A stretch of 48,092 nucleotides of DNA from a virus: IMG/VR virus record IMGVR_UViG_3300023108_001461, positions 1-48,092 of that record; one strand, written 5' to 3'. The first letter of the stretch is position 1. Every line of letters begins with the position of its first letter. Position numbers and translations under genes: made by a program. The notes under the pieces are model-generated. The model was given only the letters and a program-made list of their open reading frames with translations. It made no database searches and was not told the DNA's origin. Shown one piece after another: positions 5,780 to 36,400 of the stretch.

Positions 5780-5801
5780 AGTATATCCTTTCTACTATGT
5801 G

Positions 5802-5809
5802 TATTTATT
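5802..5809 (-). promoter_or_regulatory. T4-like late promoter octamer AATAAATA
   Basis: It matches NATAAATA, lies inside the 3' end of the CHAP lipoprotein gene, and is 22 bases before the ATG at 5779. The predicted leader holds the Shine-Dalgarno stretch AAAGGA. Confidence 0.65.
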
Positions 5810-6272
5810 CAGACCAACGTCTAATTCCTAGAGCTTTCTTTGGGTCATAATAGTCATATCTTACAGTATTGTATTGATTTCCACCTAAGATAATATAACG
5901 TCCATCATTAGAGCGTCCTACATAGAATCCAACATGCCCCTTCCAATCTGAATTGCCACGAGGAAATACAACTAAATCTCCACGTTGTATGTCTTGTGGA
6001 TTTATAGGTGCTCCCCATTGTAAAAAACTCCTAGCCATTAGAGGAGAATCACTTATAGAATTAGAACCAGGTATTCCTTCTAGTTCTAATATTGCATTTA
6101 CAAAAGCCGCACACCATTCTGTACGCACAGGATCTACTCCAACGAATTCTTTTATCTGTTGTCTATTTTGATATTCATTCAAACCTATATAATCGCTTGC
6201 TGTAGCGACTATATCTGTCGTTGGAGAACAAGAGGCCAAAAATATGGCAAATATAATATGTTTATGTTGCAT
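5805..6272 (-). CDS. CHAP/NlpC-P60-like peptidoglycan hydrolase with lipoprotein signal
   Basis: A 155-residue protein. The N-terminus is a short hydrophobic signal with lipobox FLASC, Cys15 being the predicted lipidated residue. The domain resembles the TIGR02594 group: Cys54 in EWCAAFV, His113 in KGHVGFYVG and Asn132 in ILGGNQ form the expected Cys-His-Asn set. It would cut peptide bonds in peptidoglycan from the membrane-anchored side. Phage hydrolases are usually soluble, so a lipoprotein form is unusual. A late octamer ends four bases before the ATG. It sits between spanin-like and holin-like genes, consistent with lysis. It could alternatively remodel the wall of an already infected cell. 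Confidence 0.8.
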   Translation of the reverse strand: MQHKHIIFAIFLASCSPTTDIVATASDYIGLNEYQNRQQIKEFVGVDPVRTEWCAAFVNAILELEGIPGSNSISDSPLMARSFLQWGAPINPQDIQRGDLVVFPRGNSDWKGHVGFYVGRSNDGRYIILGGNQYNTVRYDYYDPKKALGIRRWSE

Positions 6273-6276
6273 AACA

Positions 6277-6284
6277 TATTTATT
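6277..6284 (-). promoter_or_regulatory. T4-like late promoter octamer AATAAATA
   Basis: The octamer overlaps the stop of the spanin-like lipoprotein gene and is followed by TGTT and the ATG at 6272, a spacing of four bases. It leaves no room for a Shine-Dalgarno sequence in a transcript made from it. Confidence 0.6.
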
Positions 6285-6735
6285 TGAAGGGATTTAATTT
6301 ATCTAGTACTGATTCTTGTGGAGCGGAATTTTGCGCCTCTACTTCTGCTTGAGCGCCTTCTATTTGTGCATTTGCATTTTCAAGTGCTTGCTCACTATTT
6401 TCGTAATAATTTTGATAAGCGGCAATGATTGCTTTTTGTTGTTGTAACAGTTTCATAATATCACTCATATTCATTGCAAGTATTTCATAACCGTCATCTG
6501 TTAGTCCAATAAGCACAGGATCTTTTTTATCTGCTTTTAATTTATCCCAAACTTCTTGAGCATTTTCTTCGTTTATTACTACCCATTCTAAATCTTTTAG
6601 TCTTAATTCTTCAGCTGGCGGTAAAACAAGTTTAGGCTTTTCAATTGGCTTAGCACTAATCTCAATCATTTTAGGTTTTGCTGTACAACCTGCTAAAAGT
6701 GCTACTGCAATTATACCTACTATAATGTGTTTCAT
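6280..6735 (-). CDS. Lipoprotein, putative outer-membrane spanin subunit
   Basis: A 151-residue protein starting at the ATG at 6735, which overlaps the TGA of the upstream gene as ATGA and has AAGGAAAA before it. The signal peptide MKHIIVGIIAVALLAGC ends in lipobox LLAGC (Cys17). The mature part is hydrophilic, with a Pro-rich start, an alpha-helical middle and an Ala/Gln/Glu-rich coiled coil near the end. Its position next to a membrane-anchored coiled-coil protein and two cell-wall hydrolases fits the outer-membrane partner of a spanin pair. It is longer than typical Rz1-type o-spanins, so another periplasmic lipoprotein role remains possible. Confidence 0.6.
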   Translation of the reverse strand: MKHIIVGIIAVALLAGCTAKPKMIEISAKPIEKPKLVLPPAEELRLKDLEWVVINEENAQEVWDKLKADKKDPVLIGLTDDGYEILAMNMSDIMKLLQQQKAIIAAYQNYYENSEQALENANAQIEGAQAEVEAQNSAPQESVLDKLNPFK

Positions 6736-7229
6736 AGATTTTTCCTTTTCCACGCATCTGATTGTATATTAGGATCAAAGTTTGGATTTGCATCTCTCCA
6801 ACACTCTGGATTTATCTCACTTGGTTTAGTTGCACTAAGTTCTTTTTCTGTAAGTTGACTTCCACTAAATATTTCTAAACAACGTTGTGCATTTTTTGTT
6901 GCATTATTCAAAACACGTTCTGTCGAATCAGGCCTTGCTAAACCTGCCGCACCAATATCATGTCTGGAAAGTCTGTTTTCTAAAGCACGATTTCTATCGT
7001 TTATATCATTCCATTCTGCTTGTAGTCTAGTGTTTTCTTTTTGCATAGATTCGAAAGCGGCAGTTTGTGCCGCTAACGCTTGTTCATTAGTTTGTACTGC
7101 TGTTTCTAATTTAGCATTGTTTTGTGTAAGGATTTGAATTCGTTCTTGTGTGTCTGTGTAGTACCAATATCCTGCACCACCCATTAAACACATTAAAGCA
7201 AACATTACTAATGCTAATTTAGCACCCAT
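6732..7229 (-). CDS. Putative inner-membrane spanin (Rz-like)
   Basis: A 165-residue protein with an N-terminal membrane anchor (about residues 4-24) followed by a long Gln/Ala/Glu coiled coil (about 30-95) and a C-terminal globular tail with two Cys (RCLEIF, NPECWRD). This is the architecture of an inner-membrane spanin reaching across the periplasm. It is translationally coupled (ATGA) to the lipoprotein gene that follows and lies six bases after the endolysin gene, the classical endolysin-Rz-Rz1 order. The function is inferred from topology and context. Confidence 0.7.
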   Translation of the reverse strand: MGAKLALVMFALMCLMGGAGYWYYTDTQERIQILTQNNAKLETAVQTNEQALAAQTAAFESMQKENTRLQAEWNDINDRNRALENRLSRHDIGAAGLARPDSTERVLNNATKNAQRCLEIFSGSQLTEKELSATKPSEINPECWRDANPNFDPNIQSDAWKRKNL

Positions 7230-7234
7230 ACCAC

Positions 7235-8083
7235 CTACCCTAGTAATTTTCCCAGTGTTTTTGGTCCTACAATACCGTCAGCTACTAAGCCTTGGCTTGC
7301 TTGCCATTCTTTGACGATACGTGCAGTACCTGGACCAAAGATGCCATCAGCAGGAGAAATATTTAATTTCTCTTGTACTTCTGCTACTAATGGACCACGT
7401 GATCCTTGCTTCACTGTTTGGTTATAATCGATAGTTGGTTCTTCATAATCGCCACCAAGTACATCAATTGCATGTAGATAGTGTTTTTTACGATCGTCTA
7501 AACCAATTGTGCCGCCGTTGATACGTTTAGTTGCACCAACAACGTCCATTGCATCACAGTATTTGTTAATGCCATTTGTATCCCAGAACCAACATGCTGA
7601 ATCTAGTGCGCCTTTTTTAGTGCGTACATAGTCAACTGCTTCTTCTGGTGACATATCTACTGCTTCACCAAATTTTGTATAGTTATAACGTCCTGTGAGT
7701 TGTAGTATTCCACCACCCCTAAAACGCCAACCGTCGCCACTATCAGTATCGCCGTTATCCATGCGACCTGCATATATAACGTTTGCAATTCTTTCAGGCT
7801 GTCTATGATAATCTTGTGCATTTCTACCTGCCCTGATAAAGTATTTCGGGAAGATTTTATTTAGAGCCGCGGCGCTATAGTTTAAGTTTTCACTTAGTAC
7901 CCTAAAGCCGCCTGATTCGTGCCCACACTGAGCAAGAAACATTGCAACCCTTTCGATTGTATCGACTTCCCATAGAGGTAATATCTCACACATTGCCTCA
8001 TACCATTCTTTCCAATCGTCTCTATGAATAAGCTCTTCAGCCATCCATTCTTCAAATTCAAATTTAAAATGTTCTTTAGCCAT
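7235..8083 (-). CDS. Endolysin: GH19 chitinase/lysozyme domain plus peptidoglycan-binding domain
   Basis: A 282-residue enzyme. The frame continues upstream to a GTG at 8128, but the ATG at 8083 has AGGATCAGGAAA just before it and overlaps the preceding small gene by eight bases, so I chose it. Residues about 35-215 form a glycoside hydrolase family 19 fold with catalytic Glu56 (GHESGG) and Glu65 (SENLNYS) and a typical FRGGGILQLTGRYNY segment. Residues about 223-282 are a PG_binding_1 repeat (LVAEVQEKL and DGIFGPGTARIVKEWQ). It would cleave the glycan backbone of peptidoglycan at lysis. No signal peptide is present, so it needs a holin to cross the membrane. Confidence 0.9.
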   Translation of the reverse strand: MAKEHFKFEFEEWMAEELIHRDDWKEWYEAMCEILPLWEVDTIERVAMFLAQCGHESGGFRVLSENLNYSAAALNKIFPKYFIRAGRNAQDYHRQPERIANVIYAGRMDNGDTDSGDGWRFRGGGILQLTGRYNYTKFGEAVDMSPEEAVDYVRTKKGALDSACWFWDTNGINKYCDAMDVVGATKRINGGTIGLDDRKKHYLHAIDVLGGDYEEPTIDYNQTVKQGSRGPLVAEVQEKLNISPADGIFGPGTARIVKEWQASQGLVADGIVGPKTLGKLLG

Positions 8084-8953: not shown

Positions 8954-9489
8954 TATACTGTTCCTTCAGCTGGTACTTCAGCCGCTACTTGATCAGCGGG
9001 TTGAGCCTCTACTCCTGGTGCTGTAGCTGTGTCAGTAGCATCAACAGCAGGTTCTTGGTTTATATCTAAAGATTCTCTATAACCTTCATATATATCTGCA
9101 ATTAATTTTTTAGGCATCTGTATTTCTACAACCCAAATAGGCTTTTTGTCTAGTTTACCTTTTTTAGTACCAGGTCTAATATCATCAGGTGTCTTAATTC
9201 TTCTTGGTTGTATGACATCGTCTTTTGCGTAACTTACTTTACAGTCATAATCAACTAGTCTTTTGCCACCCATAGGATCCGGCATGTTTTCTCTTGGCCA
9301 CATAAATTTTGCAGTTACCCAATGCCTATCAATTTTCGGACCTTCTAATAGTTCACCGTTTTTCCAATTCTCGTAAACATATAAATCAAGGGTATCTAAT
9401 ACTCTTTCATAGTCTTTTAGCACTTGAAATGCAGTATTGCTTTCATATACTGTTTCTATATTTTTGATTAAATTTTCGATATCATACAT
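8953..9489 (-). CDS. Conserved T4-like phage protein, possible virion protein
   Basis: A 178-residue protein. The frame extends to 9561, but the ATG at 9489 (MYDIENLIKNIET) lies downstream of a good late promoter and has GGAA nine bases upstream; the longer version would start before the promoter. The middle contains RHWVTAKFMWPRENMPDP and RRIKTPDDIRPGTKKGKL, which look conserved. The last 30 residues are a low-complexity Ala/Val/Glu/Pro tail. There are no membrane segments. It is the first gene of a late unit that continues into the lysis cassette; a structural or assembly role is inferred only from that. Confidence 0.65.
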   Translation of the reverse strand: MYDIENLIKNIETVYESNTAFQVLKDYERVLDTLDLYVYENWKNGELLEGPKIDRHWVTAKFMWPRENMPDPMGGKRLVDYDCKVSYAKDDVIQPRRIKTPDDIRPGTKKGKLDKKPIWVVEIQMPKKLIADIYEGYRESLDINQEPAVDATDTATAPGVEAQPADQVAAEVPAEGTV

Positions 9490-15746: not shown

Positions 15747-15754
15747 TACTTATC
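15747..15754 (-). promoter_or_regulatory. Variant late promoter octamer GATAAGTA
   Basis: The same one-mismatch variant as at dnaJ, 20 bases before the ATG at 15727, so the predicted leader of about 14 bases contains AAAGGAG. It overlaps the 3' end of the DnaE-like gene. Confidence 0.45.
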
Positions 15755-16307
15755 TCATGAACTCTCGCCAATCCAGGCCATATTGGATTGAATCGATTCT
15801 ATGTACGCCTATCAAATACAACACATAACTAGCAACACTTGATCCGCGTCCTACGCCCCATACAATATTGTTCTCACGCATAAAGTCTACAAGATAAACC
15901 ATATAGCGTAGTAAGTCAATCATACCACGCTGTCTATATTCTTCATACTCTTCAGAAACTCTAGTCCATTCTTTTGTTGTTAAAATATTATTATCGTCTG
16001 GATCTTGTAGTTTTTCCATTAAAGTTGCTTGTAGCCAGTTTAATACATTTAACGTTTTGTATTCATCAGGCATAAACCATTCACTTTGACATACACCGTC
16101 AAAAGTCTTTTGATCTACATCTAGTGGAATATATTTTTGTAATGGAGATAGTCCTTGTTCTTCCATTGCATTGTTAAATTTATCTACTTCATCACTTGGG
16201 TCACACAGAACCACATGAACTTTATCCGAATGACCTGAATAGATCATATTCATAAGATCTTTATTTGTAAAACGAGGAATACCTAGTTCATCTGTTTTCA
16301 TTAGCAT
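15750..16307 (-). CDS. DnaE-related protein (fragment of bacterial Pol III alpha fold)
   Basis: A 185-residue protein whose last 60 residues resemble the start of the polymerase core of bacterial DNA polymerase III alpha: a helix ending DFMRENNIVWGVGRGSSVAS, then YVLYLIGV and a terminal LDWREFM. GRGSS at 153-157 corresponds to the GxGRGS nucleotide-binding motif. The catalytic Asp residues that follow in full DnaE are absent, so it cannot be a polymerase. I recall short DnaE-like proteins in T4-like cyanophages. It might act as a decoy for host Pol III partners or have a new role. The start may be the ATG at 16307 or at 16301. Confidence 0.6.
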   Translation of the reverse strand: MLMKTDELGIPRFTNKDLMNMIYSGHSDKVHVVLCDPSDEVDKFNNAMEEQGLSPLQKYIPLDVDQKTFDGVCQSEWFMPDEYKTLNVLNWLQATLMEKLQDPDDNNILTTKEWTRVSEEYEEYRQRGMIDLLRYMVYLVDFMRENNIVWGVGRGSSVASYVLYLIGVHRIDSIQYGLDWREFMR

Positions 16308-19643: not shown

Positions 19644-20204
19644 TTAAATGCCATTCATATCACTGCTTATACCTTGTACTGGACTTGTTACAGTTCCGTA
19701 ATCAACATCTGTGGTTAAACGTAGGTAATCAGCGTGTGACTGAACAGTCATTATAATTTCGCCAAAATCTAAATCTGAATCAAAAGCTGATACGCCGCCA
19801 CCAGTACCGCCGGTATTTGTAATTGTAAGAGTGTTTCCAACTAAAGTTGTTTGTATGCCTGGACCACCGTTTATATTGAAAACATCACCGTCATCGATAT
19901 TGCTACTACCCTGGTCTGATACATATAAAACGCCTTGTAAATTTGTACTTATTTGTACATTATTCCCTGCAACAGTTGATATTGTTAAAGCACCACTTGT
20001 AGTAATATTATTAAAAGTTAGTGCATCTCCAACCTTGCCTGCAAAAATTGCTTCTCCCGATCCTAAGTTTGATCCAGTAGTTGATTCAGGTTGACGTAAA
20101 TCTAGTTCGTCAAAATTTTCATTTACTTTGCGGAACGCTTCTCGTAAATCGTCACCTGTCCCGTCATTTGCAATTTGTCCTATGTTTATAGTTTGAATAG
20201 TCAT
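19644..20204 (-). CDS. Short tail-fibre-like protein with shared N-terminal module
   Basis: A 186-residue protein. Residues 5-34 (INIGQIANDGTGDDLREAF then RKVNENFDEL) form the same module that opens the 649- and 2502-residue fibres. The middle is beta-rich and repetitive (NNITTSGALTISTVAGNNVQI), followed by a Gly-rich TGGTGGG hinge and a C-terminal domain. A late octamer and AAGGATA lie upstream. It is probably an adaptor or short fibre that docks on the same site as the giant fibres. Confidence 0.75.
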   Translation of the reverse strand: MTIQTINIGQIANDGTGDDLREAFRKVNENFDELDLRQPESTTGSNLGSGEAIFAGKVGDALTFNNITTSGALTISTVAGNNVQISTNLQGVLYVSDQGSSNIDDGDVFNINGGPGIQTTLVGNTLTITNTGGTGGGVSAFDSDLDFGEIIMTVQSHADYLRLTTDVDYGTVTSPVQGISSDMNGI

Positions 20205-20233: not shown

Positions 20234-21253
20234 TTACGCTCCCCATGCGAATCGTACAGCACCATTTCCGCCATTTTGTCCAGCATGTGATAAAAACCAT
20301 CTGTAGTAATAGTTTGTTCCACCGCTGATAATAGTTTGGTTACGGATACGACCACCAGCGCCACCGCCTCCTCCAGCGCCATACGCATTACCAACAGCAG
20401 TACCGCCATTACCACCATCTCCTGCACCTGTATAGTTGTAATTACTTGTACCCAAAGGCGGAGCATCTGTACCATTAGCGCCTTGATTTGTACCGTCGTT
20501 TAAATATACTCCACCACCATCTCCACCTGGAGATGCTTTATAATAATTAAATCCACCTGAGCTTCTATAAAAATCACCACGACCGTAACCACCATCTCCA
20601 GCAGTCCTTGGTCCACCGCCGCCTCCTGGTCTAACTTCATCAGCTTTATTTCTTCCTGTGCCTGACCCTATTGTAGTGTGTATAGTAGTTGTAATACTAA
20701 GTAAATGTAAACTTGTAACAGCTCCTGCTCCACCAGAGCCGCCAGTACCACCTGTACCGCTTGCCGCTAATCCGCCACCTGCTGTTCCGGAAACACTGTC
20801 TGTTTCTTCCGCAACATTGTGTTTTATTGTAGTGTTTCCTCCGTTAGTAGCATTTGTTACTGTTCCTGCTTGTGGATATTTTGTTGAACCTGAACTACTT
20901 GATGTAGTCACAATTTCAAAAGGTGAGTTTGTGCTAACACTACCTCCACTTCCGCCTTGACCTACTACTACAGTAAACGTATCTCCAGGTTGAACAGAAA
21001 CACCTTCATAGTGTGTCCAATTGCCGCCACCGCCGCCTCCACCTGATCCGTAGGAATATTGTCCGGGTTGTCCACCACCACCGCCACCTACCATAAAAAT
21101 ATCTAATACGTATATATCGTCTGGAACAGTGAAAGTGCCATTTGTTGTAAAAACTTCTTCCCCTGTTGGAGGAGTTATAGAAGTGTCATTTATTGTAACA
21201 GCTATGGAGTTACCTTGATCATCTAATGTAAGTGTAAAAGTTTCTGCTCCCAT
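20234..21253 (-). CDS. Glycine-rich adhesin carrying the C-terminal part of a split Calx-beta domain
   Basis: A 339-residue protein. Residues 1-25 (GAETFTLTLDDQG then AVTINDTS) are the last strands of a Calx-beta repeat whose first part ends the preceding 2114-residue protein. Then come TNGTFTVP, DIFMVGGGGGG and long polyglycine runs, as in phage adhesins with polyglycine-II loops such as gp38-type tip proteins. The same order (Calx-beta end, GTFTVP, Gly-rich) occurs inside the 2114-residue protein near its residue 820, so this is a duplicated module. The start ATG has AGGATTAAGAA before it. It is likely a receptor-binding or tip protein. Confidence 0.78.
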   Translation of the reverse strand: MGAETFTLTLDDQGNSIAVTINDTSITPPTGEEVFTTNGTFTVPDDIYVLDIFMVGGGGGGQPGQYSYGSGGGGGGGNWTHYEGVSVQPGDTFTVVVGQGGSGGSVSTNSPFEIVTTSSSSGSTKYPQAGTVTNATNGGNTTIKHNVAEETDSVSGTAGGGLAASGTGGTGGSGGAGAVTSLHLLSITTTIHTTIGSGTGRNKADEVRPGGGGGPRTAGDGGYGRGDFYRSSGGFNYYKASPGGDGGGVYLNDGTNQGANGTDAPPLGTSNYNYTGAGDGGNGGTAVGNAYGAGGGGGAGGRIRNQTIISGGTNYYYRWFLSHAGQNGGNGAVRFAWGA

Positions 21254-21264
21254 TTCTTAATCCT

Positions 21265-24200
21265 TTAATCAGTTGTATTGTCAGCTGTAACATTGATTGT
21301 AACACTTGCAGAATTACTCAGTACTGTAAATGTACCAGTTAAACTTACACCTCCTATGTCAGCACTACTTACACCAGTAATTGTATAAGGAACATTTGTA
21401 CCATCAGGAACATTTGTTGTGTCAAGTGTAACTGTGAAACTCTGTCCTTCGTTCACTGAAGTTGCACTTGCTGATAGTGCATACGTTGGTGTAGGTGCTT
21501 CTGGTTGAATGTTTGTAGAATAATCTAAAGGCATCTTACGCCATGTGTAATCGCTTGAATTTGTAACAGTTCCATTAGTTGCGCCTGCTGTTGTAGGGAA
21601 TACTGATTCTCCAATAGTTATACCTACTACAGTTAATTCGTCTATTGAACTGGTTGCAATATTAACACTTGACCATTGACCTACTTCTGTATAAGTAAAT
21701 TGATCAAATTGATCATCTGGTGTTGGTGCTGGATTTATAGGAACACTAGCAACTAAGGCTTGTTGCGCTGTATTGTTGTATACACTAATACCGTATCCGC
21801 CTACAAACAATCTATTATTTGGATCAAGAGTATTATCTATTGCACAGGTATTAGCGATTAAATAATGTCCGCCTCCTTGATCAGTTGTATATATACCAAC
21901 TTCATTTTCAGTTAAACTGTCATTGAATCCTGTAACTAACATTTTGTCTGACCCAGTAGCTGTACTTCTAATTTTTCCTACAGCAAAAACTTTATCGTTT
22001 ACACTATCATAAGCTATGTCATTTACAACAGGATAAGTAGATGTTCTTGTTGTGCTATTAAGTTGCCACTCGTTTGTTCTTAAACCAGTTGTACCGTCTA
22101 ATTTAATTACATGTGATCTCCAAGTGTTTGGATCTGTTACTCCGATGTAAATGGAATCAATAGATCCGTTTTCAGCTAATTTTAATGCAAGACCACTTGG
22201 TTCTGCATCGTCATTTAGATAATACCATCTTGCAAATAGTAGAGCAAAAGTAGAACTAAATTTCCATAGTCTTGTAGCAAATTCTTCGTTATTAGTGCCA
22301 CTTGGTTGTTTTTCTCTACCATATACTACATACTGATCATTTAAGCCATCGCATTCAACAAAGTAACCTTCCATAAGTCTATCTGAAGGAGGTGCTTTGT
22401 ATTGTCTTACAACATCACCATTTGTAATGTCTAACTCCATAATAAACATTGCGCTTTGTGTAGCAGAGTTGTTTAACAACGTTCCAACAACTATTAAGTT
22501 ACCCGAACTGTTAATTTTTATGTCGTGTGCTTTGTATGCATACCCGTCTGAATCTGCATAAGTTCTATACCAAAGATTTGCGCCAGAAGAATTTGTTTTA
22601 GTTACATATAATTTACTAGGATAGTCAACTGCTGGAGTTTGTGTTTTCCAATTCCATTCTCCTGTATATGCAAGATAGTGATTTTCCGACGCATCAGTAA
22701 CAGATTGTCCTGGAATAATATTATCAGTTCCTGTCCTATTATAGATTGTCGATCCTCTATCAGATACTTTTTCCCAAAAATGTCTGTTACCGGATCCTAA
22801 TCTCGATCTGTGTGCAGTAATTGTATATCCTCTACCTGCAAGTGCAATTTTGTTTATTTCTCTATTTTCTGTAGGAGTATAAAGTCCTAAAGTTATCCAG
22901 TGATCTTTAGATATATAAATTTCTCCGTGCATACTATTATGCACAGAACACTGATAGTATTTTCTTCCATCTACTGTAGGTGTGTATTCTATCACAGCAC
23001 TTGTAGTACCGTTATTTTGAACATTGTTTACAGCTGATGCAGTTCCTGTTACTTGGTTTTCCTTCAAGTAAAACGGATGACTAGGCGCATTTACAGTCCA
23101 AGATATTGTATCACCTTGATCTATAACAATATTAGGATTAAGACCACTAATAATTCCATTTCTATCACTTCCTGCTGTCCATGTATAACCTGTATTACCA
23201 CTATTTACTACTGTTCCTGTATGATTAACCTGTGTGCCGTCACTTGTATCATTTATAACTATGCTAGTTGTAGCTACAACATCTCCACTATAATTTGTAT
23301 CACCAGGATTATATAAATCAACAGTCATAGTTTCTATTCCGTCAAATAAATTATCTGCGGCTATTCCTATATTGATACTGTTGGACAAGACATTTAATGC
23401 TGTAGTTGCTACATCTCCAGTCCAAGTAACTGATGGAGTGAACGAACTTGTGTCAGCTTGTTGTATGCCAGAAATTCTAATAGGTAACTGTGTTGCATCT
23501 TCTGTAAGATTATTTGTTATAGATACACTAACTTGGCTACCTTCATTTACACTGTCTTTACTTTTATTAAGAGTAAATGTAGGAGCATTGAATTGTCTTT
23601 GTGATCCTGGATACACAAATAATAATCCACCGTCTTGTCCAGTTTCAGCTCTACTTTGTGATCCTGCTGGTGCAAGACCCATAATACCTATTCCACCTGC
23701 TCCAGCACCAACTTCATATGCTGAAACACTTGAAACTTCATTACCAACGGCACCGTCTGCTGTTTGATAAACATCACCTGCACCTGTAATTGATAGTATA
23801 GCTCTACTTGTACCTCTTGCTCCTGATAATCCACTAAGTCCTCTTGTAAGGTTGGCACCACCACCGTGTCCGCCTCTTACTGTCCCTGTGCCACTTTGCC
23901 AATTTTCAATGAACGTGTGTCCACCACCACTTCCTACTGTAGCAGTATTTAAATCTACTGCTTGATCTCCTTGAGCTACTAAAAATTCTCCTAACGATGT
24001 AGTGTTTGCATAAGTTGCTCCTGTGTTAGCGCCACCTCTGTATTCAATACTATAGATAGTTTCACCTGCACTTTCAATATATCCTGCACTACCTCCATTA
24101 CCAACTGTGTAAGGCACACTTTCAAAAGTACATCCTGTTGCTTCAACATGGTGTTTGATGTAATAAGTCATTTGCGGAAGAGATGCATCTGCACTATAAT

Positions 24201-27200
24201 CTTGGAACTTCATTGTATTAGCATCGAGAACACTTCTTCCAGAAGTCTTTTCTAATCTTGCAACATACCTTGGCGTAGTAGCACCTGCGCCTTGTTTGAA
24301 CACAATGTATATAGAATCATAAATATCCCAAGTAGAAGTAACATTATCAGCAAAGAATCTATTGATTCTTTCCATAAAAAATCCAGGATATGAAACATCA
24401 TAGTCTGCTGTGCCTGAAGGTCTGTTGTCTAATTTGACACCTAAAAATTGAGATCCGCCATTGTAATCATCAACTTGAAACATTTTTGTAGACTGTGTAC
24501 CTGTAGTTGATCTTGCACCTGGTGCTAATTTCCAGTTTCCATCATTTGCACCTATATCAACATTTAGTATTTGATATCTATTTTTACTAACACCATCTAT
24601 TACTTCAGTTTGAGGAAAACCTTGATCACCAACGCCTCCTGTTCCAGATCCGCCGCCTCCGCCACCTATAACCATTTTGCCATGTGCGTAAGGATACGAC
24701 CAACCACCTTGGCCTCCTTGTTGATAACCAGTAAATGCAGATGATCCAGTTGCTACTGAGCCTCCAAGTCCTCCAGCTACACCTGCATCAAGCATAGGTG
24801 CTTCACTACCATATCCGTTTTTATTCTGTGCGGAACTTATTTTTCCACCTTCTATTGTATATGTATTACTACCAATTGTAAAAGAAGTGTCTCCGCCATT
24901 GTTTGCACCAATTCCTCCTGCACCTACAGTATAAGAAATAACTTGCCCTGCTGTTACTGTAATATTATTAAGCCAGCCTGTACCTCCTGCACCTCCTCCG
25001 CCAGTTAGCTGTCCTGCACCTAGAGCGGCAGTTGAACCAGAACCTGCTCCTCCACCAACTGCAAGTATGCTCAAACTTGTAACACCTTGTGGAACTGTAA
25101 AAGTACCGCTACCTGGTGTAGTAATCGGTTCTTGTCCTTGCACAAGTGTTGTACTTGTATCATTTATGGTAACACTAGCACTAACACCTGTTACACTTGC
25201 TAAACTTATTACAAATGTTTCTTCGCCTTCTGTAGTAAAGTCTTCACTTACATTAATTGTAACTTGTGTTGCACTGCCTACTATAAAGGAACCTGTTAGA
25301 GATGCACCACCTATGTCTGTGCTATCAACACCTGTAATAATATAATCTTGTTGTACTCCGTTTATTGGATTATCAACAATAAGATCAACAGTAAATGATT
25401 GACCTTCGTTAACTGCTCCTACACTTGCTACTAGATTATAAGTTGTTGGACTATTACTGGTATCATTAATAGTAATATCAATATCAATACCTTGTACATT
25501 TAGTGCGAAATTTAAAGTTTCTAATCCTTCAAGTTGTCCATCTGCCGCTATTTGATACGTCCTTGACATATCACTGCCTACAGTAAAGTTACCTGTTAAA
25601 GGTTCACCGCTTATATCTTCTGAACTTACGCCTGTAATTGTATAAGGTATAGAAGTCCCTGACAACACGTTATCTGCTGTAAGAGTAATTGTTGTTGACT
25701 CACCTTCTCCAAGATTTGTTCTAGTAGCACTAAGAGCATAAGAAGGATCAGGTGAACTAGTATCAGCTATTGTAACATTAACACTTGTTGATGTACCATC
25801 AATAGATAAAGTAAAAGTTTCGTTACCGTCGTCAAATGTATTATCTTCAGTAGCAGTAAATGTTTTTACCATAGTTACACCTACAATAAAATTACCTGAT
25901 AGCAATTCTCCGCCTATGTCTTCAGTTGATACACCTGATATTGTGTAAGGTATGATAGTACCATTGACTAGGTTTGTTGTTTGTAGAGTAATGGTAAAAC
26001 TTTGCCCTTCGTTTACACTTGTTGTTGATGTAGTTAACGCATAAGTTGGGGTTGCATCTTCTTGAACTAAAGTAATTGTTTCTTCACCTGCAATAGTTAC
26101 AACATTTGGATCGTTAAATTCTTGGAATGCGTATCTATTATATCCACCCCATAAACTTCTTTGGTTAGTGTAATCACTACCAGTGTTTCCGTTCACATCA
26201 ATTTGTGCTTTTGAATTTGATGTTACCCAAGTTTTATTATTTGCAGGTGTTGCATTTGGTTGGACTTCTCCGTAGGTAGCAACAATACCTGCTATTTGTG
26301 GAGCGGCCATACTAGTACCACTTATGTTTGTAATTCTAAAAGCATTATTAAGTGGATATGCACCATCAGTGAATTTGTTAGTGGTACTTGTTGCACTCAT
26401 AATATCTACGCCTGGAGCATAAACATCTACACCCGGTCCTGCATTAGAAAACGTAGCTTTTTGTTCATTACCGTCGCCATCTAATGCGCTGTCAATTGCA
26501 CCTACAATAATTGCTTCTGTGCTATATGGTGAAGCGCCTCTATGATAATAACGCTGACCGTAAAAAGTACTATTATAATAGTTGTTATAATCCGGATCGT
26601 TTTCGTCAGCTATTTTATGATAACTATTACCTGCGGCAATTACAACATTTACACCTTCGTCAATTAGTTCTTCTACATCTGCATCAACACTTGCTATTCT
26701 AATAGGATGTTGGTAGCCGATACCATCAAACACTCCTGTCATGCCATATGCTGTATTACGTGAACTTCCAGTCCAGTTTGTGCCTCTATAATTACCTCCA
26801 CTTATAAATTGATATCTACTAAAGTAGCCCCAGCTCATGTTAACCACAGTTGGTCTTTTTACACCTGTTGATGGATCTATTGGTTTATTTCTATGCCATA
26901 ATTTAATAATATCAAAAATATCAGAAATAGGAATTCCAGTATTTGGATCGCTGGAACCTTCTAGTCCTGCAATTTTTATACTGTAAATTCTTGCGTTCTT
27001 TGCCCAACCATATGTTTTTCCTGCCGCAATACCTGCACAATGGGTACCGTGTCCGTCATAATCTGTATAATGACCTTCTGGCATTGTTCCTGAAAGCCCA
27101 CTAGCCGCATACCAATCTATTTCTTGTACTCTACTGTTACCATTAGTATCTTGGAATTCTGGATGATCTGCTTGTATACCCGAGTCTTGAACAATAAAAT

Positions 27201-27609
27201 CTACGCCTTCTCCAGTTAAAGTATGATCAAAGCCGCCTGTAACAGTACCATCACTTAAATAAGGATTAGATAATGCAATCATTCTACGCAATCCCCAGTT
27301 TACAAAATCTCCTGAATCTAATGTAGTTTTTGTAAAGTCTCCTGTTTGAGTAGTGTGTGGTGTAATAATAATATCTGTTCTATCAGCTATATCTAGTTCA
27401 ACTGCAAAAACTCTTGCATCTTTTTTAAGTTGTTCAGCTTCCTCTTCTGTTAAAAGATAATGTGTATTCCTTATTGATCCTGGGCGAGCGTTTGCAATAG
27501 TAACAGGTCTTTCAGGAATATAAGGTAACATATTATTTGCTACCATTTCCTTTTGAAAACTTACTGGATCTATACCTTTTTTAAGTGTTACAATATATTC
27601 TTTTTCCAT
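21265..27609 (-). CDS. Giant adhesin with subtilisin domain, Calx-beta repeats and cupredoxin-like module
   Basis: A 2114-residue protein. Residues about 1-75 resemble a subtilisin propeptide. Residues about 125-460 are an S8 serine protease with all catalytic parts: Asp142 (QDSGI), His187 (DGHGTHCAG), Asn328 (AAGN) and Ser433 (GTSMAAP). Calx-beta repeats follow (about 515-820), a Gly-rich region (about 827-1340), another Calx-beta-like repeat (about 1343-1460), a cupredoxin-like module (about 1463-1563, with CSVHNSMH), a propeller-like region (about 1570-2040) and a Calx-beta repeat cut off at the C-terminus. The protease could trim the fibre itself or digest host surface proteins. AAGGATAAGAA precedes the ATG. 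No signal peptide is present. Confidence 0.85.
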   Translation of the reverse strand: MEKEYIVTLKKGIDPVSFQKEMVANNMLPYIPERPVTIANARPGSIRNTHYLLTEEEAEQLKKDARVFAVELDIADRTDIIITPHTTQTGDFTKTTLDSGDFVNWGLRRMIALSNPYLSDGTVTGGFDHTLTGEGVDFIVQDSGIQADHPEFQDTNGNSRVQEIDWYAASGLSGTMPEGHYTDYDGHGTHCAGIAAGKTYGWAKNARIYSIKIAGLEGSSDPNTGIPISDIFDIIKLWHRNKPIDPSTGVKRPTVVNMSWGYFSRYQFISGGNYRGTNWTGSSRNTAYGMTGVFDGIGYQHPIRIASVDADVEELIDEGVNVVIAAGNSYHKIADENDPDYNNYYNSTFYGQRYYHRGASPYSTEAIIVGAIDSALDGDGNEQKATFSNAGPGVDVYAPGVDIMSATSTTNKFTDGAYPLNNAFRITNISGTSMAAPQIAGIVATYGEVQPNATPANNKTWVTSNSKAQIDVNGNTGSDYTNQRSLWGGYNRYAFQEFNDPNVVTIAGEETITLVQEDATPTYALTTSTTSVNEGQSFTITLQTTNLVNGTIIPYTISGVSTEDIGGELLSGNFIVGVTMVKTFTATEDNTFDDGNETFTLSIDGTSTSVNVTIADTSSPDPSYALSATRTNLGEGESTTITLTADNVLSGTSIPYTITGVSSEDISGEPLTGNFTVGSDMSRTYQIAADGQLEGLETLNFALNVQGIDIDITINDTSNSPTTYNLVASVGAVNEGQSFTVDLIVDNPINGVQQDYIITGVDSTDIGGASLTGSFIVGSATQVTINVSEDFTTEGEETFVISLASVTGVSASVTINDTSTTLVQGQEPITTPGSGTFTVPQGVTSLSILAVGGGAGSGSTAALGAGQLTGGGGAGGTGWLNNITVTAGQVISYTVGAGGIGANNGGDTSFTIGSNTYTIEGGKISSAQNKNGYGSEAPMLDAGVAGGLGGSVATGSSAFTGYQQGGQGGWSYPYAHGKMVIGGGGGGSGTGGVGDQGFPQTEVIDGVSKNRYQILNVDIGANDGNWKLAPGARSTTGTQSTKMFQVDDYNGGSQFLGVKLDNRPSGTADYDVSYPGFFMERINRFFADNVTSTWDIYDSIYIVFKQGAGATTPRYVARLEKTSGRSVLDANTMKFQDYSADASLPQMTYYIKHHVEATGCTFESVPYTVGNGGSAGYIESAGETIYSIEYRGGANTGATYANTTSLGEFLVAQGDQAVDLNTATVGSGGGHTFIENWQSGTGTVRGGHGGGANLTRGLSGLSGARGTSRAILSITGAGDVYQTADGAVGNEVSSVSAYEVGAGAGGIGIMGLAPAGSQSRAETGQDGGLLFVYPGSQRQFNAPTFTLNKSKDSVNEGSQVSVSITNNLTEDATQLPIRISGIQQADTSSFTPSVTWTGDVATTALNVLSNSINIGIAADNLFDGIETMTVDLYNPGDTNYSGDVVATTSIVINDTSDGTQVNHTGTVVNSGNTGYTWTAGSDRNGIISGLNPNIVIDQGDTISWTVNAPSHPFYLKENQVTGTASAVNNVQNNGTTSAVIEYTPTVDGRKYYQCSVHNSMHGEIYISKDHWITLGLYTPTENREINKIALAGRGYTITAHRSRLGSGNRHFWEKVSDRGSTIYNRTGTDNIIPGQSVTDASENHYLAYTGEWNWKTQTPAVDYPSKLYVTKTNSSGANLWYRTYADSDGYAYKAHDIKINSSGNLIVVGTLLNNSATQSAMFIMELDITNGDVVRQYKAPPSDRLMEGYFVECDGLNDQYVVYGREKQPSGTNNEEFATRLWKFSSTFALLFARWYYLNDDAEPSGLALKLAENGSIDSIYIGVTDPNTWRSHVIKLDGTTGLRTNEWQLNSTTRTSTYPVVNDIAYDSVNDKVFAVGKIRSTATGSDKMLVTGFNDSLTENEVGIYTTDQGGGHYLIANTCAIDNTLDPNNRLFVGGYGISVYNNTAQQALVASVPINPAPTPDDQFDQFTYTEVGQWSSVNIATSSIDELTVVGITIGESVFPTTAGATNGTVTNSSDYTWRKMPLDYSTNIQPEAPTPTYALSASATSVNEGQSFTVTLDTTNVPDGTNVPYTITGVSSADIGGVSLTGTFTVLSNSASVTINVTADNTTD

Positions 27610-28479: not shown

Positions 28480-30429
28480 TTAAACTCCTCCAAATGCTAC
28501 CATTTGTCCTAGCACAACATATGTTCCGCCATCGTTTAATATTGTGAATGAAAAACTGTCTACTCCGTTTGCTGTTCCTGTTGGCGCACTGTTGCCTTGC
28601 CAAACTATTGTTTGTGCTACACCACCAATTTGTACTGCTGTGATTTCGTATTCTGTTCCACCTTGATCAATTACAACAGTTACATTGGTTGCGTATTCTG
28701 CTGTTAAATCTAAATTAGTAAAGTTTGCTGTAATATCACCTGCTGGTGCTGTTAGATAATGAACGTGTCCTGTTGAACAATCTAATGCTGTAACTCCTGT
28801 AGCACCGTTGGTTGTAGCAAACTTTTCTCTAACACCTTTTTCTATCTGTATGCCACCTGCTGTTGTGTTTAAAACTGCTGTGTTTGTGTGATAAAGTGTA
28901 GCAATACCGTTTGCGGCTGATATAGCAGTATTTGCCAATGCGCCATCTTGTATTCTAACAGTTGGACCGCTTATGATTAAAGTGCCTGTGTTGTTATCGA
29001 TGTTACCTGTTGTGCCACTGTGATATATTCTCATATCATTATCAGTGCCAAACCTAACTTCCTCATTATCGTCAAGGTCAATAGGTTTAGTAAGTCCTGA
29101 TGAGTCTAATGCTGTAATTGTTGCACCAGTAAAGTCTACACTTGTTGCACCTGTAAAGTCAACTGCACCTGTTGGAGCCATATTGTTTAATGTTGCCGCA
29201 TCTGTAATGCCATAACCAACAAGTGTAGTTGGTGTGCTAGTTAAATCACCAAATGCAACACTTGCCAAATAGTCAGTTCCTGCAACTGCCGCTGATATAT
29301 TACCTGCACCATCTGCTTTTACTATTCCTGTGATTGCACCTACTACTGGGTCTGTTTCTGTGTAACTTGTTAAGTATGAACTTAAATCTGGTGGAGTAAA
29401 TGTAAATGCACCTGTTAAATTATTATATGCTAGTGCGGCTGTGCCTGCACTTGCTGTTGATACACTTAATCCTGTAAGAGCAACTGCGTCTGTAATTCCA
29501 TAACCTGCTAATGTGGTTGGTGTTGATGTTAGATCTGAAAATGCACCTCCAAAATAGTTCGGTGCTGTCCATCCATAGCCTATTGCTGTTTTTGTAACAA
29601 CATCTCCTGTGTTACCACCTGCTAATAGATCTCCAATATCGTTTGGAATTATACTAGTTGTATCTGTTAAATCACTTACGTCTGCTGGAATAATATTCGT
29701 TGTATCTGTTAAATCACTTACATCTGCTGGAATTAAACTTCCGTTATCTGTTAAATCGCCTATGTCTGTTGCAGTTGCATTTTTCCATACACCGCCTACA
29801 TACATTTCTAAATTATTTGAATCAGTGTTAAAAATTAATGAACCGTCTGACAGGCCAGCTAAACCGTCTCTCGCGACTGTGTCATAGTCTGGTGGAACAA
29901 TTTTTGCAAATTCGTTTACAGTTAGTGTTCCATTTACAAAAAGTTGTGAACTGCTGTGTCCTATTTGTACATCACCACTTGCTACATCATATCCTATTTG
30001 TATGTCTTGTCCTGCTGTTTTTAGTTGTATTGAACTATCGCTGTATATCACTGTACCATTGTTAGATACTTGAACATAATCTTGTGCAGATACGTGTTGC
30101 ATTGTCACTGTGGTTCCAGCTTCAATTACAACATTGTCTGCTGTTGCTTCTATTTCAATATCTCCTGTAGGCCTTGTCCAAGTAGAACTTTCAATAGGAC
30201 CAACAACTTTACTGTTGTTACCATCAACAAGCATTGTACTGTCAGTACCGCTTACAGTACCTATAATATCACTTGTGATAGTTCCACCACCAAAGTTTAC
30301 ACTGTTAAGCTGTTTTACATCACTGTAAACTTCATCAAAGTTTTCGTTTATTTTCCTAAACGCTGTGCGTAATGGATCGCCATCACCTTTGTTAGCACTA
30401 GTTCCTATGTTTACTACTTGTTTAGTCAT
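28480..30429 (-). CDS. Tail fibre protein with shared N-terminal module and internal repeats
   Basis: A 649-residue fibre. It opens VVNIGTSANKGDGDPLRTAF, RKINENFDEVY, the docking-type module shared with the 186- and 2502-residue proteins. The middle has 14-residue repeats (DVSDLTDTT-IIPA, about 225-265) and two copies of a DLTSTPTTL-GYGITDA unit, typical of phage tail fibres. The C-terminal part is beta-rich (HVHYLTAPAGDITANF) and resembles the end domain of other marine fibres. The ATG overlaps the stop of the 2502-residue gene (TAATG), so the two are translated together. It is probably part of the long or side fibre. Confidence 0.82.
   Translation of the reverse strand: MTKQVVNIGTSANKGDGDPLRTAFRKINENFDEVYSDVKQLNSVNFGGGTITSDIIGTVSGTDSTMLVDGNNSKVVGPIESSTWTRPTGDIEIEATADNVVIEAGTTVTMQHVSAQDYVQVSNNGTVIYSDSSIQLKTAGQDIQIGYDVASGDVQIGHSSSQLFVNGTLTVNEFAKIVPPDYDTVARDGLAGLSDGSLIFNTDSNNLEMYVGGVWKNATATDIGDLTDNGSLIPADVSDLTDTTNIIPADVSDLTDTTSIIPNDIGDLLAGGNTGDVVTKTAIGYGWTAPNYFGGAFSDLTSTPTTLAGYGITDAVALTGLSVSTASAGTAALAYNNLTGAFTFTPPDLSSYLTSYTETDPVVGAITGIVKADGAGNISAAVAGTDYLASVAFGDLTSTPTTLVGYGITDAATLNNMAPTGAVDFTGATSVDFTGATITALDSSGLTKPIDLDDNEEVRFGTDNDMRIYHSGTTGNIDNNTGTLIISGPTVRIQDGALANTAISAANGIATLYHTNTAVLNTTAGGIQIEKGVREKFATTNGATGVTALDCSTGHVHYLTAPAGDITANFTNLDLTAEYATNVTVVIDQGGTEYEITAVQIGGVAQTIVWQGNSAPTGTANGVDSFSFTILNDGGTYVVLGQMVAFGGV
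29617..29765 (-). repeat. Tandem 42-base repeats in a fibre gene
   Basis: About three and a half imperfect copies with a 42-base period, seen as TGTATCTGTTAAATCACTTA at 29659 and 29701 and a diverged copy at 29743 (plus-strand text). They encode the 14-residue unit DVSDLTDTT-IIPA. Copy number could change by slippage and alter fibre length. Confidence 0.7.
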
Positions 30430-33400
30430 TACACTTTCCCCACAACTATTTCAATTGTTCCTTTGCCATCGCCTTCTTTAGCTTCTAGTGCTTTACCAAT
30501 AACACTTCCTATACCAGGATTGTTATTAGCTATTGCATAACCTTCAATAGCACTTGCTACAAGCATGTCACCCGGATTAACATTTCCGATTACTTTACAT
30601 TTTACTCGTCCTGTTAGTGCTACAGGTGTTACGTAATCACCTTGCAATTCACTGTTCATTAAGTATGCAGGATTTTCTGAAACTACTCCGAACACTCTTG
30701 TATCACCTTTGGTTGTAGTAGAAGTAACTTCTTTTGTTCCTCCTAGTACAACAACAGTTCCTATTTCATATTCAGCATCTGCTAGATAGTTTTCTGCCAA
30801 GTCAGCATAACGAGCTTTAGTTGCAGTACCATCAAATACACTTGCATATACTGTGTTATATCTTAAAGGTGAGCCGCCGCCCTGTCCAATGTTGTATACA
30901 TTATCAACATCAGGAACAACTCCTACGTTACTAAATTTAAATGGCGCTTTAGTTGCGGCCGCATCTGCAACCAATAAACTAATTTCACCTGCATTTGTTT
31001 TACCAGTACCAGCACCTATTGCTATACCTGTTGAACCTGTGCCTTTTTCGTTTGCCGCTTCAATAAATTGTGTGTAAATCCAATCTGAACTTAAACGTCC
31101 TGCATTGTTAAAAGTTGAATTTGTTTGTAGTGTACTTTGTGTATTTGCACCACTATTATCAATATCAATACTTGCCGCAAATTCAGCTGTAATTGCACTA
31201 GTACCAGTTGCTTCAAAAATTTGAGCACCACCTGGTGTAAGCATTTCAATTGTTGTTGCCGCGCCTGACTTAGGTTGTAAAATAGTATAAGAATCATTAG
31301 CACCAACTATTAAACCAGTTGTTCTAATTTTTCCATCGCTTTTTGTCATTACTAAACTATCACTACCGCCAGTTGTAGTAATTGGAACTTCTGTTGGAGT
31401 AGCACTTGCACCACTTATATTACCTAGTGCAGTAAGGTTAGCAATCTCTTGTATGTCAGCTAAGTCGACTGCACCACCTTTAAGTGTAACCCAGCCGTCA
31501 GTTACATCAAAGTCGTCACTATCAAAACTTGCAAGTCCTAGATCTGCTTGAGCAATACCAACTGCATCTGCTCTAGTAGTTGCCGCGTTCATTGCAAGTT
31601 TACTTTGTAGTATTCCTGCATCACTCTTAACATCAGCATTTACTATAGTGTCGTCTTTAATCATATATCCTACACTATAGTGATCGCTTTGCGTAGAAGT
31701 TATAAACTCAATTTGACTTGTTCCATCATCTCTACCGTTGGCATGTTCTAGCAACGGAGCAACATCTGCTTGATCACAAATTGGAACAGTTGTATTACCT
31801 GTGGCACCAGATACAGTTACACTTGTAATAGCACCATTTCCGTCAACTGTTGCAATAGTAATAGTTGCATCGTTTGCAGGAGTAGCACCACCTAATAAAG
31901 TTCCTGGTACAGTAAATGTTTCAGTGGCATCATAACCAGTACCTGCATTTGTTATGAGTTCAACATCGTATGCTAAACCTTTACTAACCCAGAATGCCGC
32001 GTCAATACCGTTACCACCTACTTCAGCGTTATAAGTTATACCTGGCGATGACAATGCTCTAATAAGAGTTTTTTGTGTTACTGCACCGCTTCCACTAAAA
32101 GCACTACCGCCAAATATTTCATTATAGGTTACTCTAATTGCATTACCTACAACAGCGTCTACAATAGTTTCAACTCTTTGAACCCAACCCTTAGCACTTC
32201 CTGCTTCAATAATACTACCTTGGAAGGTTGTATCAAACGGTCCATCTTGTATAGTAGAAGAATCTAAAAGTAAAATTTTGTTTCCTGTATAGTGTAAAAG
32301 TTGTCCACTGTAATAATCTCTATCAGGTATTGCACTATCTGAAGCAGGTTTTCTAACCATTACATCGCGTAATAAGTCTAAACTGTTTGAACTAGATGCT
32401 ACTTGATCAACATAGTTTTTGTTTGCCGCATCTGATCCTTGATCTGGAGCACTTACGTTAACAATTCTATTACTACCTAGGTTTAAATTTCCTACCATTG
32501 CGGCATGGCCATCTCTAGCAATAGCACCACCACCAATAATATTACCAATAGCAACACCGTTGTGATCCCAACCTAAACGTCTGTTTACATAACCACGTAC
32601 AGCGTTTTGTGTAGGGACAATGTCTGAAGCATTTTGAGTCATACCATCGTCTGTACTAAATTCAGCAACGACAACACCTCGTTTAAATCCAATACCATCT
32701 AAGTTAGATAGCGCAATACTACCTGCAAAAGTAACTGTACCAGTACCTTGGTCAACTGTAAAGAATCTACCTACACGGAAGAAACCATCTTGGTCAGTTG
32801 ACACGTAGAACACACGTCCCTTACTACGTTCTTGAACTTCGTAGGATTGGTTGTTCTGTCTACCTTGTCCTAATAGTACTGTTGGATAGTTTGTTTGGTT
32901 ATAAGATCCTGTACCAATATCTAAGAAGTCGTGTCCTGTAGCTCTTGTCAAAGAAATTTGAATTGTAATATCACCAGGCGCATCTTTAAGTAAGCCAACA
33001 CGTATAGTCAATGCTTGTGTACCAGATAAGTTCACAGGACTATGTAAGCCTCTTGCGTTTCCTGTTTTGTTTAGATCAATATAACCACTTGGAGTATATG
33101 GATCCATCACGTCAAAGAATTTTAGGATTGCGTAGCCTGATCTTGGTATATAGTCTGTAACCATATGGGTCTTACCGTTCCATGTAAAGCCCATTCCGCC
33201 TCTACGCAAACGTGCAACGTCTTGAACATCTGTAATAGGTTCAATAGCAATACCAACATCGCCTTTTGTATCACCTAGTGTTGTGCCGCCAAACCCTGGT
33301 TCAACAACAACATTTGTATATGTTTCATCTACAATACATCTTACATAATCAAATGTAGAATCAAGACCCATTAAAATTTGATTATCAGTAGGTAAATCTT

Positions 33401-36400
33401 CTCCAGTTGATTCTGTTGTTGTAAATGTTGTTGTTCTATAGGTATAGCCGTCTTTTTCATCAAACTCAAATGCTGTACTTGGACGTATTGTTAATCTATT
33501 TGTATCAAGGACATTGTCCATTACAAAAACTTGGTTTTGTCTGTAGTCAATTAAATGACCTTCTTCTAGTTGTTCTACAAGTCCGTCATTACTATATCCT
33601 GCTGTAGCAGTACTAAAGTTAACTTTGTAAACTTGTCCATCAAAGATCGGTGTGTCTGCTGTAGGCACTATAGTACCTGTAGTTGTTACAGTTTTTATTT
33701 GACCATTTGTGTCTACAGTGTCTACTGTGATAGTTGCATCATTAGTACTACTAGCACCATCTAGATTAATACCATCTACAACAAATGTATCACCAACTGT
33801 ATAGTTAATACCACCATTTCTAATGATTGCTACATAGTCGCCTGTTCCTGTACTATCTTTGTTTGAAAGTATTTTTTGAATGTCAAATTCTGCATTAGTA
33901 CCTGTTGCTGTTGGTGTAAATGGTACATCAATATGTCCGTCTACTCTAAAATCTTTTACTAGGTTGATACTAGAAGCTTCATATCTGGCAATAGTACCAT
34001 TTGTGTGCAGGATATTAAGTTCACCTCTGTTCTGTGGTTTTGATTCAAAATCAAATACATAGATGTTAATTTGTTCTGCATCTGCTCGTAAACTTGGGTT
34101 ACTTACATCAACTGGTTGTCCTAGGTTAGTACTTCCGTTTAATATTACATCAGCATTTATATCAAACAATCCACCTGACACATCTTTAAGATATAATTTT
34201 TTACCTGCTGTTTCAAAAACTACTGTACCTGTTGCAGATCCTTGTGTTACTTGGTGTCCTTTTTCCGCAATAGCAGGAACGCTTCCAATTGCTGTACTAA
34301 ATTCTAATATTGTTTCGGCTAAAGCAATCTTAGCTGGTTTAACCATATTATCACGTAGTGTTACAGCATCTGGAATTTCATTTGGATCTGAACCGTTTGC
34401 AACTAGACCGTATTCACCATATGCGTTAGAACCATTAAGTGATCTAATTTCACCACCATTGTTAGCGTAGTATGCTGTCCAACAATAGTAAGTAAACTGT
34501 GACACCATTTCTGATAAGCCACCGTTGTTAACAATTAATCCGTATCCTAAGTCGTTAACTTGTGTAAAGTCGTTACCTAGCATTGATCTTGCACCAGCTG
34601 TCTGTACAGTGATTTCAACTTTGTTTATCGCACTGACTGTATCTAAATCAACAGAACCATATACAGTGCCTGTAAAACCTTGTCCTACACCGAGTGAATC
34701 TTTGTTAGAACTTTGATCAAGAATTAATTCAGCTGTACCAGTTACCTGGTCCCAATTTCTTACAGCATTGACTTGGAAACGTCTACCTTCCATATAGAAT
34801 GGAGCAGGTACTTGAGGCTTTCTAACATACAAACCTTGTCCTGCTTGTGACTCAACTTGTAGTGTAAAATTATCTGTCTTGCCTACAACGTCCATTGGAA
34901 CGTTACCAGTAAACGCATCAACAAGCATACCACCTCTAAATGCTTGTCTGTTTAGAGATTGTGAAAAACTTGAACCTGTTTGACAATAAGGAGATTTAGT
35001 TAATACTTGTCCATCTGGATCAAGTACCATCATAAATCCGCCATGTCCTGTAACACTCAAGTTTCTAACAATAGTACCATCATTACAAAGGAAAACGTCA
35101 ATACCGTCTTTGTTATTTTTTGGAGGATTATAACCTGCATTGAAAGCAAAGGTTACACAATCAACTAGGTTATTAACCTCTGTAAGTGATTGTGTTTCAG
35201 AAGTTAACCTAGTATCAATTATTTGATCAACACCTGATTGTAAACTAGTGTAGGCAGTATTTTGTAGCACTGTGTTAGCAACAGTTTTAATTTGATTAAT
35301 TGCCGCTACTGTTTCATCTTCTTGTCCTGCAACAGCACCTGCATAATAAAAACCCTGATTCTTTAAACTTGCTCTGCGTCCGCCATAATCTAGATCTTCT
35401 GCAATACCTTCTACGATAAGTTTTGTATCTCTCAAACATTTAGTTTGATCGTATACAAACCCAGAAGTAAATGGTGCAATATTACCAGCAACTTGAGCAT
35501 TTATCCAAGCAATAATTTCTGCACCAATATAGTCTACATTATACGTTAAAAGTTTTGATGCTTGTTTATATCCACCTGCGTTGGTTGCACCAAAGTTACC
35601 TACGTTAACATCTTGTGCTGGATTAACTAGATAGTGTCTACCAAACCAACCTACTGGGTTACCTGTTAGCGGATCAACATATCTTGTACCACCTGTTGGT
35701 AAGTTAGGATCAGCTACTCCAGTGACACTGTTTGAATCACCTCTTAGGCCATCGAATTCTTCATCTCTATAAAAATATGTATTAGCCCAAGGAGATTGTG
35801 ATACTCTGTTTGCTGGTCTTATAATCACACGTCTAAATTCATCACCTTTGATAGATACGTTAGCAGGAAGTTTAATCGGAAAGTCTTCAAAATAAGTTCC
35901 TGATTCAACTCGCAAACTAATTTGGTTAAATTTAATAGTATTTGCATATTCAAGACCTTCACCTACTTTAAATTCTGTAGGTTCTAAAAGTTGAAGTTCA
36001 ATAATATCTGTATTTGCTGGATTAGTAGGATTTAGATCTTCACTTAGATACTCAATTACTCTACCAATTGCCCCTGATTCTTTACCTCTTACAACCTTAC
36101 CTGGTAACAAGTCTGTGTTGTCTGGATCACCTTGGTCAATATATCCATTAATTGAACCGTTAGGTACAGTGAGTTTGTAGGTGCTACCATCAATAATATC
36201 AGGAGCTGAAAATGCACTTCCGTCAGTGATTAGATCAGTAATTATATCATACTTGCTACCAATTTGTGATCTAGAAGTTGCGTCAACAGTCAAACTAATA
36301 TTAATATATTGTGTATAAAGAGTTTGATAACTTGTTGAAGGTGCAGTATTTTGTAATATTAAATCTGTTAATTGTTTTGCAAAAGTAATTGCCGCAAGTG

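Follow-up and report, generated by a model that had tools for sequence, protein, structure and literature searches.

The question raised by this locus is why a gene for a tail protein should stop, and the next gene should start, in the middle of what appears to be a single protein domain. The window, by which we mean the whole stretch of DNA analysed, is a virus record of 48,092 bases, and both genes lie on its minus strand. The first gene (21265..27609) encodes a scaffold protein of 2114 residues with an N-terminal S8 peptidase, beta-sandwich repeats, an internal glycine-rich domain, and a C-terminal partial domain, here called the socket. The second gene (20234..21253) encodes a tip protein of 339 residues, consisting of a short N-terminal segment, here called the key, and a glycine-rich body (Gly_rich_2, PF21722, 38.7 bits; alignment A1). 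The 2114-residue reading frame ends in ...NVTADNTTD*, while the 339-residue reading frame starts with MGAETFTLTLDD, and an intact repeat available for comparison, SEDFTTEGEETF, is found within the 2114-residue protein. The junction reads ...ACA ACT GAT, then TAAAGGATTAAGAAATG, then GGA GCA GAA ACT..., with exactly 17 bases (21267-21251) between the GAT codon (21270-21268) and the GGA codon (21250-21248). These bases hold the stop codon TAA (21265-21267), the Shine-Dalgarno sequence AGGA (21261-21264), and the start codon ATG (21251-21253), so that the original prediction of a 17-base stop, Shine-Dalgarno, and start cutting a domain between two adhesin genes is confirmed letter for letter.

Several features surround this junction. 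The S8 peptidase domain of the scaffold protein (residues 140-467; 26209..27192, minus strand; PF00082, 107 bits) keeps D142, H187, and S433 invariant among relatives (alignment A2); a subtilase with apparently intact catalytic residues forms the N-terminus of a tail protein, and such a domain is also found near cyanophage tail genes. Three intact beta-sandwich repeats, with the same fold as the split domain, were located with a profile of natural intact copies at residues 521-618, 622-718, and 723-819 (25153..26049, minus strand). The gene that follows the tip gene (19644..20204, minus strand) encodes 186 residues and matches the N-terminus of T4 gp9/10 weakly, just below the Pfam cut-off (23.7 bits against 25). 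The same weak N-terminal match is common to the products of 28480-30429 and 30429-37937 on the same strand, and in these three proteins it is perhaps a common attachment module.

An assembly or sequencing artefact could have broken one gene in two; no point in support of this explanation was found. The same 17 bases are present in a second record, 3300022939_001431 (L001), which matches the window at 99.93% identity across 19,017 bases and makes a slip in the assembly of a single record unlikely; at least six lineages carry the split with different spacers. Independent contigs therefore rule out an assembly artefact as the source of the 17 bases, and we give this explanation practically no weight. 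Elsewhere in the window the 17-mer has one other match, with 3 mismatches, which is at chance level. Judging from gene spacing, short intergenic stretches made up of a stop, a Shine-Dalgarno sequence, and a start are ordinary in this gene-dense genome. What is special about the 17-base junction is its position, not its composition.

The domain that is cut had been labelled Calx-beta, and this label is not supported above threshold: PF03160 (Calx-beta) scored 13 bits on the whole 2114-residue protein against a cut-off of 27, and reached E < 0.1 in only 3 of 36 aligned domain copies. The domain is best termed a Calx-beta-like beta-sandwich. AF2 modelling of the socket, spacer, and key of contig L102 as one chain with contact forced (the in-frame stop TAG being read as Gln, with an alignment including 35 natural intact copies) gave a beta-sandwich with a pLDDT of 91. 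In this model the socket comprises strands A-E and the key strands F (82-88) and G (94-100); the split with its spacer falls in the E-F loop, which is less ordered (about 62). Based on this model, on conservation, and on alignment A4, the socket of the window corresponds to the last 74 residues of the scaffold protein, with the end ...TADNTTD (21268..21489, minus strand); the key corresponds to residues 2-26 of the tip protein (GAETFTLTLDDQGNSIAVTINDTSI; 21176..21250, minus strand; alignments A4 and A5, AF2 model). Modelled alone, the tip was poorly predicted (pLDDT 46.5), with the key lacking a strand, and was too poor for a fold search. A Foldseek search of BFVD with the sandwich recovered the fold in proteins of cyanophages and of other phages from the sea (E down to 1.8e-7); a search of the PDB gave no match at E <= 1e-3, the top 50 being other or generic Ig-like domains. 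The acidic residues E14, D44, and D70 of the socket and D101 of the key (A4 numbering) are invariant, and E82 of the key is nearly so. As a speculation, acidic residues from both halves may hold a metal ion between them, in the manner of Calx-beta domains.

Relatives were gathered through the tip, the 829-residue neighbour, the S8 domain, and a DNA pattern for the tip start, and all of those carrying the split are metagenomic fragments of uncultured marine T4-like phages. (The 829-residue neighbour is longer in L024 and L027, at 1132-1134 residues, which suggests a domain insertion.) The cut recurs at this position, between ...TD and M-[A/G]-x-E-T, in 13 contigs including the window, representing at least six diverged lineages. 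The spacer is 17 bases long in the window and in L004, 16 in L002 (TAGGAGAATATAAATG), 17 in L007, L008, L015, and L025 (TAAGGAATTTTAAAATG), 21 in L016, L017, L018, and L023, and 15 in L102, where the start is TTG. Every spacer includes a Shine-Dalgarno-like stretch that overlaps or adjoins the stop, followed by a start, and beyond this the spacers share no length, frame, or sequence. Since the same residue is cut in diverged relatives with different spacers, the arrangement is far beyond chance. In isolated phages, the proteins related to the S8 protein are those of cyanophages, with less than 40% identity and other C-termini, and the tip and key have no relatives.

These spacers bear directly on the possibility that ribosomes make a single fused protein at the junction, whether by bypass, by frameshift, or by reading through the stop. 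The halves do rejoin without loss, and readthrough would be in frame across the 15 bases of L102 and the 21 bases of the L016 group; however, gaps of 16 and 17 bases require different frame changes, and because the lengths of 15, 16, 17, and 21 bases cover all three frames, none of these events could be the shared mechanism. The features of gene 60-type bypass were not found, as the take-off and landing codons (GAT/GGA, GAC/GCT) are unmatched. Each spacer also contains its own Shine-Dalgarno sequence and start, and keys head genes that lie behind genes other than the scaffold gene. We consider a fused product very improbable, and judging from the sequences the mechanism shared at the junction is the stop, Shine-Dalgarno sequence, and start. 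The original prediction had offered that the insertion is bypassed or variable; the first is not borne out by spacers without a shared frame relation, while the second is true between lineages, both of spacer sequence and of tip identity.

A relative in which the halves are fused, with about 2450 residues, had also been anticipated, and one does exist: L026 encodes 2414 residues, with the halves joined as ...VTADTTTEGAETFTFTLD..., and natural fused forms in general join the socket and key halves in exact register. The fusion does not make the split recent, as had been proposed. In the S8-domain tree, a 12-row clade (support 100/99) has the split L102, window, and L004 as its three deepest branches, and the fused L026 and L021/L019 fall within that clade. 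A minimum of three changes is needed on this tree, and the simplest reading would be an old split with two fusions after it; alternatively, the 5' part of the gene may have recombined with the 3' part. At the C-termini of some fused relatives (L009, L019), a short domain ending in YYQC...HGSMHG replaces the glycine-rich tip. This domain looks plastocyanin-like by eye; the window protein also contains it internally (YYQCSVHNSMHG), and several distant S8 proteins end in it.

The socket is among the most conserved parts of the scaffold protein. Across six diverged split lineages it is 80% identical, the remainder of the protein being at 54%, and it ranks at 98.8% in identity among all 74-residue windows of that protein; across seven lineages its dN is 0.09-0.32 and its dS 0.58-2.35. 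In split lineages it is also more conserved than the protease (80% versus 73%, and higher in 12 of 15 pairs), whereas the equivalent position in fused relatives, a set that mixes two clades, is less conserved than the protease (58% versus 66%). That the socket exceeds the protease only in split lineages is suggestive rather than a formal test of selection.

The other half of the domain is carried by the downstream genes. These start with M-[A/G]-x-E-T-F-T-L-T-L-D...DTS, a key containing the last two strands, and all 13 aligned keys keep M1, E4, T9, D11, D23, T24, and S25. Position 2 is always A or G, and either residue in this position in general permits removal of the initiator Met. The cargos behind the keys are glycine-rich tips, an FG-GAP propeller in L138 (seven repeats, 210 bits), and proteins of 265 residues in L138 and 201 residues in L004 without a confident family. 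L004 carries two key genes in a row behind a single socket. A search of cellular genomes gave 79 pattern matches, the best-scoring of which are unrelated proteins that have only the first 11-18 residues in common with keys, and these were rejected. No key-bearing gene accompanies the remote glycine-rich matches in L051-L054 and L057.

The natural exchange of tips can be followed at the split. In the 500 bases leading up to the start codon, L008 and L025 share 92-100% identity; from the start codon onward identity drops to 76% and then to about 50-60%. A near-identical socket thus bears two different tips, and by this comparison the seam is the split itself. In a second pair, the split L025 and the fused L026, the sockets are 62% identical in protein; in DNA, the keys are 64-80% identical, and past the end of the key the tip cargo is mostly 96-100% identical. 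On these alignments the same cargo occurs both as a separate protein and fused. Of the indirect evidence, this is the strongest for placing the split domain where the intact one sits. These seams, at the start codon and at the key end, together with the alignment in which the cargo is more variable than the key, would also fit a key that is a mere seam for recombination or is left over from an ancestor in which the gene was fused, with a split that helps tip genes to be exchanged, half domains that do not bind, and tips attached through other parts. On that view the socket would be a truncated, unfolded end and should decay, yet it is the most conserved stretch and has a low dN/dS; keys hold their amino acid pattern at synonymous divergence, even when located away from an adjacent socket. 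For these reasons we regard a seam or relic as unlikely.

Some halves are found on their own. L028 and L020 have a conserved socket from which the tip gene is cleanly absent (8985-9060 and 1036-1110, respectively), with the 186-residue gene following directly after about 30 bases. Conversely, L138 (4416-6545) and L148 (reverse complement, 5391-7574) each carry two tandem key genes at another locus, behind different genes, and a free socket was not found in either fragment. This locus follows genes for DNA polymerase III alpha, an esterase-like protein, and a GRYGAYDL protein, and its cargos include the FG-GAP propeller and glycine-rich tips. Linking through the DNA polymerase gene of L138 and L148 identified no contig holding both a socket and this locus, and searches through neighbouring genes and with a looser pattern found no key arrays besides these two. 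As a separate observation, the window encodes a free-standing fragment of 185 residues that is similar to a portion of DNA polymerase III alpha, with a GVGRGSS motif (15750-16307, minus strand), which is kept behind the tail genes in 13 of the 21 related records searched; L138 and L148 have a different fragment.

These unpaired halves could mean that the free socket binds another partner, either its own copy by domain swapping or another virion protein, and that the key likewise binds elsewhere. The socket and key, however, complement each other exactly within one domain, in the register in which fused relatives have them joined, and keys that act in trans from elsewhere in the genome would explain L028 and L148 equally well. 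We find other partners improbable.

The reading we prefer, and hold to be probable, is that two chains reassemble one domain non-covalently and so hold exchangeable tips. The S8-protease tail protein would terminate in an incomplete beta-sandwich, strands A-E, forming the socket, and the tip gene would be translated separately by reinitiation at the stop, Shine-Dalgarno sequence, and start. The first 24 or so residues of the tip would supply the missing strands F and G; removal of the Met, which A or G at position 2 would allow, should put the key in exact register, a register seen in the sequence. The key would then insert in trans into the socket, complete the domain, and hold the tip without a covalent bond. 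With a common key, tips could be replaced as whole genes or doubled, both of which are observed, or encoded elsewhere; they probably compete for one socket, and unlinked keys may be used in trans. We infer that the tip acts in receptor binding. The split is conserved at the same residue, its halves are complementary and under selection, keys are portable and tips have been swapped, and fused equivalents exist. Together, the shared split residue, the exact-register fusions, the L102 model, the conservation of the socket, the 13 keys on several different cargos, the two key genes behind the socket of L004, the key arrays of L138 and L148, and the swaps support the earlier idea that the domain is a docking point for a separately made tip, with the physical assembly of the chains being the presumed step. 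The forced contact in the single-chain L102 model, the poor model of the tip, and the sockets of L028 and L020 without an adjacent tip count against it, and as L138 and L148 are fragments, the use of their keys in trans is likewise presumed. A broader version, in which one conserved split beta-sandwich is a genetically encoded universal connector that makes the tail protein accept any of several tips bearing the 24-residue two-strand key, including those from unlinked arrays, and in which a single phage could carry a mixture of tips with no need to recombine, is plausible but slightly doubtful.

Parts of this arrangement resemble known systems. In chaperone-usher pili, another subunit contributes its N-terminal segment to complete an Ig-like fold that lacks one or more strands. 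Here both halves are present and complementary in sequence, with completion in trans presumed; the difference is that two strands (F and G) rather than one would be donated, and that the two chains derive from a domain that is intact in relatives. A periplasmic chaperone and usher would not be expected for the tail of a phage. The split CnaB2 domain (SpyTag/SpyCatcher) is likewise a small beta domain cut into a short terminal peptide and a remainder that reassemble, as would be presumed here, although that pair is engineered and this one is natural. Lys is absent from every socket and key examined, so that an isopeptide bond of the SpyTag type is not formed. In T2-type phages, a separate glycine-rich tip gene, gene 38, lies just behind the gp37 fibre gene, and gp38 is attached by its N-terminus and is interchangeable if the N-terminus matches (PMC12892980). 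The present tip gene is also separate, glycine-rich, and directly behind a scaffold gene, but the N-terminal region of gp38 that binds the gp37 trimer has about 113 residues, whereas here about 24 residues complete a half domain; the tip profile A1 gave no gp38 match among PDB sequences, and with a tip model at pLDDT 46.5 a polyglycine-II sandwich of the gp38 type would be conjectural. The outcome would be like that of gp37/gp38 and the principle like that of donor-strand complementation, and the tests made do not place the system in either. Branched tailspikes (Kuttervirus, G7C, and others) have a conserved N-terminal anchor behind which the C-terminal receptor-binding part is exchanged horizontally (PMC10408124), but these anchors are the spike's own attachment domains and not about 24 residues of a partner's domain. 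Marine T4-like phages carry a large variable host-recognition cluster (PMC7029224). In the open-access literature we found nothing relevant on split or strand-complemented phage tips, though this does not prove absence; what we did not see described there is the half-domain connector, exchange behind a conserved anchor being well known (PMC10408124).

The split explains why tip genes in these phages start in the middle of a domain. It also provides a warning, as such genes resemble annotation or assembly errors and could be wrongly merged. The natural socket and key pairs, with their graded divergence, are a ready series for compatibility tests. Known exchangeable receptor-binding tips normally bring their own anchor region. 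If the proposal is true, these phages would have a new way of attaching and swapping tips, through a natural split into socket and key that has been kept over deep divergence, with various cargos, and sometimes fused again.
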